Origin: Kribbella antiqua
GTDB lineage: Bacteria > Actinomycetota > Actinomycetes > Propionibacteriales > Kribbellaceae
DNA length: 64,000 nt
NCBI RefSeq assembly: GCF_004345665.1
Contig: NZ_SLWR01000007.1
Location: forward strand, 372,001-436,000
Reading direction: 5' to 3'
Shown here one piece after another: positions 5,508-41,454 of the stretch (the first letter of the stretch is position 1; each line of letters opens with the position of its first letter). The translations under genes and the position numbers were made by a program. The notes under the pieces were generated by a model. That model saw only the letters and a program-made list of their open reading frames with translations. It searched no databases and was not told the origin of the DNA.

Positions 5508-6311
5508 ATGCGCCGTAGGAGTGTTGCCCGGATGACCGGGTTGGCGGTCGCGGTGGTCGTCGCGATCTGCGCGCTGTACCAACTGCCGGCCAGCCCGTTG
5601 GCCCGCCGCGGCTACGCCGAACGCCCGGCCGTACAGGCCACGACATCCGGACCGGCCGTCGTACCTTCAGAGCGCCCAGTTCCGCCTCCGAAACGTGCGC
5701 CGGTGCGCATCACCTACCCCGCCCAAGGCACGGTCTCGTACGGCGTTCTGCCCGGTGACCCGAGGATCATCGGCAAGGGTGGACGGCTGATGACGTTCCA
5801 GATCGCGATCGAGGGTGGGATCAACGGAGTCGACCGGAACGCGCTGGTGCAGTTCGTGCGGGCGACGTACGGCGCACCGCAGGGCTGGGCCTCTCATGGG
5901 CTCTGGCGGTTCCGGCAGGTCGGCCCGGGCCAGGCCGCTGACTTCACGCTGATGCTGGTGACTCCGGCGACGCGCGACATCCTGTGCGGTGGCGGCTACG
6001 ACCGCTACACCAGCTGCCGGATCGGCGATCGCGTCGTCCTCAATGTCGCCCGCTGGGTGCACGGTGTGCCGAACTACGGCGCTCCGCTGACCGCGTATCG
6101 GCAGTACATGATCAACCACGAGACCGGCCACCGGCTTGGCCGCGGCCACGAGCTGTGCCCGGGACCCGGCCGGCCGGCGCCGGTCATGCAGCAGCAGACC
6201 CTCGGCTTACACGGCTGCACGCCGTACTCATGGCCGTACTTCAACGGCATCCGCTACCAGGGCCGCTTGGGTCAATACAACGACGCCGTACCTAAAGGTC
6301 GTGGCTGGTGA
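5508..6311 (+). CDS. Secreted/anchored DUF3152 protein, metalloprotease-like
   Basis: 267 residues. A basic N-terminus and hydrophobic segment (about residues 13-30) indicate export. The rest matches the actinobacterial DUF3152 family: the conserved core has paired cysteines (CGGGYDRYTSC), a zincin-like NHETGHRLGRGHELC near residue 205, and VMQQQTLGLHGC. This HExGHxxxxxH pattern resembles metzincins, so a zinc peptidase role is plausible but unproven. GAGGAG lies before the ATG. The last codons and the TGA stop fall inside the left arm of the 147-bp repeat element at 6305. Confidence 0.85.
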   Translation: MRRRSVARMTGLAVAVVVAICALYQLPASPLARRGYAERPAVQATTSGPAVVPSERPVPPPKRAPVRITYPAQGTVSYGVLPGDPRIIGKGGRLMTFQIAIEGGINGVDRNALVQFVRATYGAPQGWASHGLWRFRQVGPGQAADFTLMLVTPATRDILCGGGYDRYTSCRIGDRVVLNVARWVHGVPNYGAPLTAYRQYMINHETGHRLGRGHELCPGPGRPAPVMQQQTLGLHGCTPYSWPYFNGIRYQGRLGQYNDAVPKGRGW

Positions 6312-6451
6312 TCCCCCGCCTACTGCGCGGCACTCGGCACGGCACCTCGCCGCACTGGCGCACAGGCCACGATGCTCCGCATCGAGACCTGCGCTCCAGC
6401 ACGCCGATGCACCGCACCGAGCACCTGCTCGCTACGGCGCTGGATCACCAG
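6305..6451. repeat. 147-bp repeat element, copy 1, with terminal inverted repeats
   Basis: Copy 1 of a 147-bp sequence that recurs at 19851-19997. The internal stretch 6317-6451 differs from copy 2 at only one base. The ends CTGGTGATCC and GGATCACCAG are perfect 10-bp inverted repeats. Internal hairpins are CGATGC/GCATCG (6370-6384) and CGAGCA/TGCTCG (6418-6431). It fills the gap between two convergent genes and supplies the stop codon of the upstream one. No transposase is encoded. Confidence 0.85.
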
Positions 6452-6458
6452 CCACGAG

Positions 6459-6824
6459 CTACTCCTGAATGATCGCCAAGGTGTTTCCCGCCGGGTCCTT
6501 GAACCAGGCGATCGCGGGGCCCTCGCTTTCGCGGAGGATCCCGAGATCGTCGTGCTTGTCGCCGTACCGCTCGAAGGTGATGCCGCGCTCGGTCAGCTCC
6601 GTGACGGTCTTGTCGATGTCGTCGACCTGGAAGTTCAGCACGGTGTGCTCGGCCGGGACGTGGTTGTCCTTCGGGTAGACCATGACTTCGCTGCCGCCGG
6701 TGTGCAGCCCGAGCATCCCGTTCCGCTCCGTCACCTCGAGCCCGAGCTTGCCGGCGTAGAACTCCTTCGCCGCCCCGATGTCATTCGCCGAGAAACTGCT
6801 GAATGCCTTCGCGTCCTGCAACAT
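6459..6824 (-). CDS. VOC (glyoxalase/bleomycin-resistance fold) protein
   Basis: 121 residues, one vicinal-oxygen-chelate module with paired beta-alpha-beta-beta-beta units: [13 protein letters not shown] and [11 protein letters not shown], ending in [15 protein letters not shown]. The ATG at 6824 follows a strong GGAGGAGAGG. Ligand and activity are unknown; such small VOC proteins include metal-dependent lyases, dioxygenases and drug-binding proteins. It converges on the DUF3152 gene with the repeat element between them. Confidence 0.88.
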
Positions 6825-6928
6825 CACGCACCTCTCCTCCCAGCGCCCCTGGACAGGCGCCTTTCTTGGTACGTCGAGGCCACAGGTGCCTCTCTCGACA
6901 TGCTGCACCCGCGCGGCGGCTCGGTCTA

Positions 6929-18659: not shown

Positions 18660-18692
18660 CCCCACCCCGCCGCCCCGGCCCACGTGCCGACC

Positions 18693-18781
18693 TTTGATGG
18701 GTTCACCCATCAAATTGTGGGTTCGCAGCCCGTATGCGGTTGGGGAACCCACCATCTCGTGGGTGAACCAATCAAATGGGG
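18693..18781. repeat. 89-bp imperfect palindromic element, copy A
   Basis: TTTGATGGGTTCACCC at the left, with a partly complementary right arm ending in AAATGGGG. It shares the same 89-bp length and the first 20 bases with the copy at 41366-41454. The two arms form a long imperfect stem with an AT-containing middle, and GATGGGT/ACCCATC is a nested small hairpin. It lies before the luciferase-like gene; an in-frame ATG at 18776 falls within it and is not used as the start. Confidence 0.7.
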
Positions 18782-18829: not shown

Positions 18830-19843
18830 GTGAGCGCCGAACCGATGCCCCTGTCCGTGCTCGACCTTTCGCCGGTGCCGACGGGATCACGTCCGTCGCA
18901 GGCGCTGCACGAGACGCTCGAGCTGGCCCGCACCGCGGAGGCCGCCGGCTACCACCGCTACTGGCTGGCTGAGCATCACAACATCCCGAGCGTGGTCAGC
19001 AGCAGTCCCGAGGTGATGATCGCGGCCGTCGCCGCGGCCACCTCGAGCATCCGCGTCGGCTCCGGCGGCATCATGCTGCCGAACCACTCACCGCTCAAGG
19101 TCGCCGAGACCTTCCGCGTCCTGGCCGGCCTGCATCCCGGCCGCATCGACCTCGGCATCGGCCGCGCCCCCGGCACCGACCAGCGCACCGCGCTCGCCCT
19201 CCGCCGCAGCCGCGAGACACTCGGTGCCGACGACTTCCCCGAGCAGTACGCCGAACTGCGCGCGTACGCCGAGGGCTTCCCGGCCGGCCACCCGTTCGCC
19301 CCGATCTCCGCCCAACCGGACGACGTACCGCTGCCGCCGGTGTGGATCCTAGGATCCAGCACGTACGGCGGTCAGGCGGCCGCCGCGCTGGGCACGGGCT
19401 TCGCCTACGCCGGCCACTTCGGCACCTTGGATCCGGCCGAGGTGATCGCGTCGTACCGGGAGAACTTTCAGCCCTCGGATCACCAGTCGGAGCCGCACGT
19501 CATCCTCGCCCTGGCCGCGATCGTCGCCGACACCGAGGAACGCGCTCAGCAACTCGCCCAGGCGAACGCACTCTCCATGCTCCGCCTCCGCTCCGGCCGG
19601 CCCGGCCCACTCCCGTCGCCCGAGGAGGCTGCCGCCTACCCGTGGAGCGACGCGGAGCGTGCCGCCGTCGAGGAATGGTCCGGCCTGGTCTCCGTCGGCA
19701 CCCCTGACCAAGTCGCCACGGACCTGTCCCGCCGCGCCAAGTCCGCGGACGCCGACGAACTCATCATCACCACGAATATCCACAACCCGGCCGAACGCCG
19801 GCAGTCCTTCGAGCTGCTCGCGAAGGCCTGGGGCCTGCGCTAG
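18830..19843 (+). CDS. Luciferase-like (LLM-class) flavin-dependent monooxygenase
   Basis: 337 residues, TIM-barrel. It opens with MPLSVLDLSPVPTG and EAAGYHRYWLAEHHN, followed by SSPEVMIAAVAAAT and RVGSGGIMLPNHSPLKVAE, the typical LLM set. The GTG at 18830 has GGGG 6 nt before it. Reduced flavin would be needed from a partner such as the reductase at 18132. Substrate unknown. It converges on the Lrp gene with the repeat element in between. Confidence 0.9.
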   Translation: MSAEPMPLSVLDLSPVPTGSRPSQALHETLELARTAEAAGYHRYWLAEHHNIPSVVSSSPEVMIAAVAAATSSIRVGSGGIMLPNHSPLKVAETFRVLAGLHPGRIDLGIGRAPGTDQRTALALRRSRETLGADDFPEQYAELRAYAEGFPAGHPFAPISAQPDDVPLPPVWILGSSTYGGQAAAALGTGFAYAGHFGTLDPAEVIASYRENFQPSDHQSEPHVILALAAIVADTEERAQQLAQANALSMLRLRSGRPGPLPSPEEAAAYPWSDAERAAVEEWSGLVSVGTPDQVATDLSRRAKSADADELIITTNIHNPAERRQSFELLAKAWGLR

Positions 19844-19850
19844 GCCCTGT

Positions 19851-19997
19851 CTGGCAATCCATCGCCTACTGCGCGGCACTCGGCACGGCACCTCGCCGCA
19901 CTGGCGCACAGGCCACGATGCTCCGCATCGAGACCTGCGCTCCAGCACGCCGATGCACCGCACCGAGCACCTGCTCGCTACGGCGCTGGATTACCAG
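19851..19997. repeat. 147-bp repeat element, copy 2, with terminal inverted repeats
   Basis: Copy 2 of the element at 6305-6451, identical length. Its end arms are CTGGCAATCC and GGATTACCAG, with one mismatch that is a G-U pair on the other strand. The arms differ from copy 1 in a partly compensating way, so structure seems to be kept. It fills the convergent gap between the luciferase-like gene and the Lrp gene. Confidence 0.85.
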
Positions 19998-20004
19998 ACG
20001 GGAC

Positions 20005-20502
20005 CTAGACCCCAGCACCCCGGACGTGCTCGAAGATCAGGCTCGTCTCGGCGTGCACAACCGCCGGATCGGCCGTCAGATGATCGAGCACGAACTCACG
20101 CAGCGCGTCAGGCGACGGCGCTGACACATGCAGCAGGTAGTCGTTCGCACCGCTGACATGGAAGAGCGACAGGACTCCCGGTAGCTCCGGCGCCTTCGTC
20201 CGGAAGCGGTTGATCTCGTCGCGCGAGTGCGCCCCGATGCGCACCGCGACCAGGGCCTGGATCGGCTGGCCCAGGGCCGCCAGATCCACCTCCGCGTGAA
20301 ACCCGCGGATCACCCCACGCTCTCGCAGTGACCGTACGCGCGTCAGGCAGGTCGACGGCGCGATCCCGGTCGCCTCGGCGAGGGCGTTGTTCGGCATCCG
20401 CCCGTCGGCGGTCAGCAGCCGGACCAGCTCCCGATCGACCTCGTCGAGCCCGCCCGGAACCGGCCGCGGAGCCGGTCCAGGGCTCCGACGATCCTTCGGC
20501 AT
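20005..20502 (-). CDS. Lrp/AsnC-family regulator
   Basis: 165 residues. N-terminal HTH: LDEVDRELVRLLTADGRMPNNALAEATGIAPSTCLTRVRSL. C-terminal RAM effector domain: QALVAVRIGAHSRDEINRF and HVSGANDYLLHV. ATG 20502 has a -10 TACAGT 6 nt upstream, consistent with a leaderless transcript. It is divergent from a Cys/Met-metabolism PLP lyase and probably controls it through the sites at 20519-20599. Confidence 0.92.
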   Translation of the reverse strand: MPKDRRSPGPAPRPVPGGLDEVDRELVRLLTADGRMPNNALAEATGIAPSTCLTRVRSLRERGVIRGFHAEVDLAALGQPIQALVAVRIGAHSRDEINRFRTKAPELPGVLSLFHVSGANDYLLHVSAPSPDALREFVLDHLTADPAVVHAETSLIFEHVRGAGV

Positions 20503-40994: not shown

Positions 40995-41359
40995 GCGTGA
41001 TCGCGCAGGTGTTCGTCGTACTGGCCGGGGTGTTTCATCTCGCGGTGTTCGCGATGGAGAGTCTGCTCTTCCGGAAGCCGAGCACGTACAAGCGGTTCCG
41101 GGTCAAGGATGACACCGAGGCGGCTGTCGCGCGGCCGTGGGCCTTCAACCAGGGCTTCTACAACCTGTTCCTGGCGCTTGGTGCGCTCGGCGGCCTCATC
41201 GCGGGCGGCGACAAGGGACATGCCATCGCGCTGTTCGCCTGCGCGTGCATGGCCGGCGCCGGGATCGTGCTGATCGCGTCCGACCGCCGGATGGCCCAAG
41301 CCGCCGCCCTCCAGGCCGCCCCACCCATCGCCGCCCTGGTCCTCGCCGCGGTCCTGTGA
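40991..41359 (+). CDS. DUF1304 membrane protein
   Basis: 122 residues, four membrane segments: VFVVLAGVFHLAVFAMESLLF, NQGFYNLFLALGALGGLIAGG, IALFACACMAGAGIVLIAS and a last Ala-rich helix. MESLLFRKPSTYKRF is the family pattern. Role unknown. GTG 40991 overlaps the previous stop. Confidence 0.85.
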   Translation: MSVIAQVFVVLAGVFHLAVFAMESLLFRKPSTYKRFRVKDDTEAAVARPWAFNQGFYNLFLALGALGGLIAGGDKGHAIALFACACMAGAGIVLIASDRRMAQAAALQAAPPIAALVLAAVL

Positions 41360-41365
41360 CCCACG

Positions 41366-41454
41366 TTTGATGGGTTCACCCATCAGCTTGTGGGTTCGCA
41401 CGCCGTATTCCGGCCGGTAACCCACAAGCTGGTAGGTGAACCCACGAAATGGGG
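41366..41454. repeat. 89-bp imperfect palindromic element, copy B
   Basis: Same length and first 20 bases as copy A at 18693-18781. Its arms, CATCAGCTTGTGGGTT and AACCCACAAGCTGG, pair better than those of copy A. Centre CCGGCCGG is a loop. It lies 36 bp before a set of TTGAA/TTCAA sites. Confidence 0.7.

Follow-up and report, generated by a model that had tools for sequence, protein, structure and literature searches.

Why do some genes of Kribbella antiqua end inside one and the same non-coding repeat, and how did this repeat come to lie where it does? The question is raised by a window of DNA (the whole stretch that was analysed, 64,000 nt), in which an earlier note, made by reading the sequence, had seen two near-identical copies of a short element with terminal inverted repeats. 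Alignment and repeat finding show that the two copies are real. The note had given them a length of 147 bp (6305-6451 and 19851-19997), with 10-bp inverted repeats. Comparison with empty sites corrects the length to 165 bp, and folding of the window copy indicates that the inverted repeats are part of something larger: the whole element is a single long imperfect hairpin. Its ends, AGG...CCT, were set by comparing filled with empty sites in other copies; the limits returned by the repeat finder were 6296-6461 and 19842-20007 (166 nt, with one extra A). The features of the two copies and of the genes around the first one are as follows.

5508-6311, plus strand: DUF3152-type gene (name taken from the earlier note), upstream of copy 1
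6296-6460, minus strand (the well-folding strand): hairpin element copy 1, A6296...T6460, 165 bp, ends placed by the filled/empty comparison of other copies
6297-6314, no strand assigned: left arm of copy 1, pairing with 6442-6459 in 17 of 18 positions, G6298/G6458 unpaired
6309-6311, plus strand: TGA stop of the DUF3152-type gene, within the left arm of copy 1
6317-6439, minus strand: core of copy 1, approximate limits, about 127 nt, a long imperfect hairpin
6442-6459, no strand assigned: right arm of copy 1, partner of the left arm
6459-6461, minus strand: TAG stop of the opposing VOC-type gene (CTA on the plus strand), its C and T supplied by the right end of the element
6459-6826, minus strand: VOC/glyoxalase-type gene (named from its sequence), convergent neighbour of copy 1
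19842-20006, minus strand: hairpin element copy 2, in the same orientation as copy 1, 165 bp

The left end of copy 1 does hold the stop codon of the DUF3152-type gene, just as the note had stated. In other species this gene ends in PHS or similar residues, without the element. Its neighbourhood with the VOC-type gene is conserved in about 25 Kribbella genomes, and in most other Kribbella the stops of the two genes abut or overlap (gap -7 to 22 bp) with no hairpin between them. At the same junction K. rubisoli (G018) has a shortened relative of the element. In genome G001, from another species, this junction is occupied by a long, divergent hairpin (L113), each end of which has CTAG. Copy 2 lies between a luciferase-like (LLM) gene and an Lrp/AsnC-type gene, both named from their sequences, with the TAG stop of the LLM gene at 19841-19843. 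The element accounts for the fact that some genes of these bacteria end inside a repeat.

The near-identity of the twins holds for the core, where we observed 0 differences over a 128-nt alignment, and does not extend to the ends: each arm has 5-6 differences within its outer ∼19 bp. Each copy is nevertheless self-complementary, with the arm of copy 1 (GTGGCTGGTGATCC) and that of copy 2 (CTGTCTGGCAATCC) each pairing with its own partner arm. The sequence context around the two copies is unrelated. Folding of the minus strand gave -123.5 kcal/mol (z = -11.9), as against -93.5 kcal/mol (z = -8.2) for the plus strand, and the core read on the minus strand contains ∼11 conserved G-T/G-U pairs. The earlier note had denied the element any coding capacity; indeed none is evident. 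The window contains a second dispersed repeat as well (18671-18781 and 41344-41454, 111 nt, 77% identical), either strand of which folds into a long hairpin (z about -5 to -6); it is unrelated to the 165-bp element.

The earlier note had proposed a count of copies in this and related genomes. The own genome of the window has 13 matches (E<1e-5), well above two and far more than chance would give, and matches were found in 38 of 38 Kribbella genomes (1-26 in each), so that absence from related genomes, named in the note as an observation that would speak against its reading, is not what we see. For the analysis of structure we aligned 78 copies and then 139. On the minus strand the 78 copies had 828 G-T versus 20 A-C cells; in the 139 copies the counts were 74 versus 7 in the arms and 1410 versus 16 in the core (1484 versus 23 in total). 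The strand that corresponds to the window minus strand was the more stable one in all 139 copies, with RNA and DNA energies alike. Only one strand of the element folds well. In an ungapped alignment of 69 sequences the named structure had 97.7% of its cells paired, and in 33 pairs both partners had changed; none of 500 shuffles reached this covariation, and slid partners were paired in 34-49% of cells. Almost half of the pairs in the core are invariant, and therefore have no bearing on the structure either way.

The sequence of the left arm varies among copies while its complementarity to the right arm is kept. There were 109 different left arms in the 139 copies, 115 of which were perfectly paired over 19 positions, and the Kribbella arms vary 2- to 4-fold per position in a covarying manner. 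An identical core was seen in nine copies from six species; their arms differ, by a few bases in some cases and by many in others. In four clear pairs of copies at the same site in different species (L035/L130, L042/L174, L149/L216 and L291/L292) we counted 0, 1, 0 and 2 arm changes of 38, and 2, 7, 5 and 7 core changes of 127, respectively; in pairs from different sites with a core difference of at most 1, the arms differed by up to 23 of 38 bases. Judged from these sequence comparisons, the idea that arms are renewed only at transposition is partly supported. More distant same-site pairs have compensated arm changes, so change in place also occurs, and the contrast between arms and core could also reflect strong constraint or homogenisation of the core. 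Arm flips such as G-C to C-G have almost no intermediates among the 139 copies, which suggests that one arm serves as the template for the other.

Palindromes made of arms alone, about 28-34 bp long, were numerous between genes (L299-L318, in K. pratensis, K. soli and G029; e.g. TAGGTCCTGTCTGGATCACCAGACAGGACCTA); they are apparently products of internal deletion. A different family of short palindromes, with the same outer GTGTCTG and another inner stem, occurs in G010, G012, G016, G020, G021 and G033 (e.g. GTGTCTGGGGACAGGTCATAGCCTGTCCCCAGACAC).

To locate empty sites, the joined flanks of 18 insertions were used as queries against sister species. Most of the 18 have a contiguous, i.e. empty, site in several sister species, with flanks 91-97% identical. 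Within Kribbella the element is both scattered and mobile. The sites represent individual insertions that sister species lack, and a recent segmental duplication, which the earlier note had considered as a possible source of both copies, is refuted. At five sites (L151, L139, L040, L147 and L133) the empty sequence equals the filled one minus AGG..CCT exactly, so that any target-site duplication must be shorter than 3 bp; the comparison of orthologous loci suggested in the note has turned up no longer one. A 2-bp TA duplication would fit three of the five sites, but not L147 or L133. At the other sites the length is mostly kept and 1-3 bases are changed at the left junction in comparison with the sister sequence. 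The junction logo reads YTA at the left and TAG at the right, with variable second bases. The element inserts into sites that conform weakly to YT|AG, and does so without duplicating 3 bp or more of the target.

Gene contexts were considered for 79 copies: 13 are convergent, 31 tandem and 9 divergent, the rest being unclear. A rule that the element always lies between convergent genes is rejected by these numbers. Stop codons lie directly beside many copies, probably because a YTAG site between genes is often a TAG stop; the supply of a stop codon or of a terminator-like hairpin would be a by-product of insertion. Two further ideas about the origin of the copies were given up. A core that invades the loop of a pre-existing terminator hairpin does not agree with the orthologous empty sites, which have no hairpin; short hairpins retain remnants of the core ends and are therefore internal deletions. 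Arms derived from the target were hinted at by L037 only, where the sister sequence is explicable as a deletion through a CCCTGG repeat.

With dnaA as the marker of the origin, we determined the orientation of all listed matches in seven complete genomes. One replichore rule, by which the query plus strand is on top in the right replichore, is obeyed by 98 of 100 full-length copies (p = 8e-27; the exceptions are G020:647866 and G034:2770226) and by all 44 partial copies, which are deletion remnants; the total is 142 of 144, in which some copies, being common to several species, are not independent observations. The orientation of the element is locked to the direction of replication. Seven insertions of G029 that are lacking in sister species follow the rule without exception (7/7). 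At tandem sites 19 copies are co-directional with transcription and 12 opposed to it, so transcription is not what sets the orientation. Copy density drops toward the terminus (29, 23, 25, 18 and 5 by fifths). The distance between dnaA and the DUF3152-type gene is 0.14-0.17 Mb in 11 of 11 complete genomes, and in all of them the gene is directed away from dnaA; this would make the fork in the window run in the plus direction, with both window copies obeying the rule. It follows from the rule that the well-folding strand corresponds in sequence to the nascent lagging strand (and to the leading-strand template).

In a pattern scan of named genomes only Kribbella was present among the matches listed. 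A class-wide search of 395 Actinomycetes genomes gave weak matches, among which are clear cases of a long hairpin with similar arms from other families (L462, L460, L458 and L437). The plasmid search produced a single relative, on an Embleya megaplasmid, which is a hairpin whose arms are different; a search of viral contigs with one exact pattern produced 0 matches. In G299, a Streptomyces-like genome whose origin was taken near 4.3-4.5 Mb from coding-strand bias, the orientation rule holds in 11 of 14 copies and all exceptions are in the outer chromosome arms. In several copies of this genome (L464-L491) one side of the core carries an additional inner hairpin as an insert (AGCCTTCGGCCGGGGG...).

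The earlier note had read the repeat as a small non-autonomous mobile or RNA element. Its mobility is supported by copy number, genus-wide presence and empty sister sites; on the choice that the note had left open, the strand-specific fold and the replication lock point to a single-stranded intermediate, DNA or RNA. We consider it rather probable, with considerable reserve, that the element is a protein-free mobile hairpin whose folded, single-stranded form is taken up into the nascent lagging strand. The moving form would be the well-folding strand, as ssDNA or an RNA copy, with its two ends held side by side as in a hairpin adaptor. It would enter the nascent lagging strand at a nick, a gap or an Okazaki-fragment end, at YT|AG; the 3′ end of the element would prime or be joined to the target, and replication would then make the second strand. 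Such an entry would leave the 5′ junction precise, cause no duplication and account for the changes of 1-2 nt at the 3′ junction. Differences in the arms may arise, or stay matched by complementary changes, when one arm of the folded strand acts as template for the other. We put forward only tentatively that this is a mobile kind which lacks a transposase family of its own, in which a folded RNA or ssDNA serves as primer or adaptor, host replication and repair enzymes do the work, and every move rebuilds the arms by fold-back copying.

An ordinary MITE of a DDE transposon (with an ERIC/IS630-like TA target, or of an IS that targets YTAG), mobilised in trans and oriented by contact of the transposase with the sliding clamp at the fork, is unlikely in our estimate, even though the element resembles MITEs in being short, non-coding, multi-copy and mobile. 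Its inverted repeats, small size, intergenic location and YTA..TAG flanks are in keeping with such an origin, as are the three sites that, taken alone, would fit a 2-bp TA duplication. MITE copies share conserved TIRs, and the arms of G299 are uniform (AGGGCGTGTCTGACA), as expected of a TIR; uniformity is seen only there, whereas the Kribbella arms vary and covary unlike a protein-bound TIR. A target-site duplication is expected of a MITE too; the five exact sites have none, and L147 and L133 exclude one of TA. Among the lone close arm matches checked in three genomes no autonomous partner with the same ends was found; these were arm-only palindromes or truncated copies. Nor does a DDE transposase give a reason for the strand-specific fold, and an orientation bias of 98% is extreme. 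Tn7 is a DDE transposon of large size that leaves a 5-bp duplication, in contrast to a 165-bp element without duplication. What the element shares with Tn7 (TnsE pathway) is the orientation bias at replication forks, and such bias together with clamp binding is described for several IS families (review PMC5371812); fork polarity read by a transposase through the sliding clamp, rather than by the moving strand, could impose orientation. ERIC and similar MITEs of Enterobacteria are likewise 127-bp-class imperfect palindromes, intergenic, protein-free and in many copies, with an unknown mover (PMC2759123), but ERIC has TA duplications, while the Kribbella element has none at the deciding sites, its arms covary and its orientation is locked to replication.

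Random insertion followed by loss of those copies whose well-folding strand is the lagging template, through palindrome instability or cleavage, appears still less probable. Long palindromes are unstable on the lagging template, and internal deletion derivatives are common in this family; remnants should then include the wrong orientation, yet the partial copies and the seven G029 insertions lacking in sister species all obey the rule. We find it very improbable that a Y1 HUH transposase moves the element as an ssDNA element of the IS200/IS605 or REPIN/RAYT type. The absence of target duplication, the single-strand hairpins and an orientation that follows replication are shared with IS608 and ISDra2 (PMC5371812), but short subterminal hairpins and a transposase gene are lacking in the element. 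If the well-folding strand moves, the polarity is opposite: the IS608 strand is on the lagging template, the strand here is the nascent lagging one. REPINs of Pseudomonas and E. coli are also small protein-free intergenic palindromes with predicted ssDNA/RNA hairpins and compensatory stem changes (PMC3116915); they consist, however, of two conserved REPs, in contrast to one long replichore-locked hairpin with variable arms, and a Y1/RAYT gene is expected for them. Y1_Tnp (PF01797) was detected in 1 of 38 Kribbella genomes and not in the other 37, while the same search was positive in 5 of 14 controls. Fixed bidirectional terminators or structured RNAs without mobility, suggested by the hairpin energy, the stop codons at the ends and the convergent context of both window copies, are scarcely credible. 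Orthologous sites are empty, the contexts of the 79 copies are mixed, no T-run stands beside the stem at either end of the element as read from its sequence, and Rfam 15 has no family above the gathering score. As the origin of the copies this explanation is refuted; termination as a side effect is possible.

The element thus resembles a palindromic MITE or REPIN but fails the tests that define these (shared TIRs with a target-site duplication; a Y1 transposase), which makes it a variant with a mechanism that is perhaps new. Our literature search found no paper describing this element, which is not proof of absence.

How palindromic repeats of bacteria without a transposase, ERIC and similar ones, are moved is an open question. 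The Kribbella family gives unusually clean evidence on it: empty sister sites, a strand-specific fold and an almost absolute replication lock. The joint changes of its two arms are, in addition, natural examples useful for the study of template switching in palindromes. The co-oriented copies of the seven complete genomes suggest a mobile folded strand at the replication fork, and a single-strand, replication-coupled route becomes directly testable in culturable bacteria.
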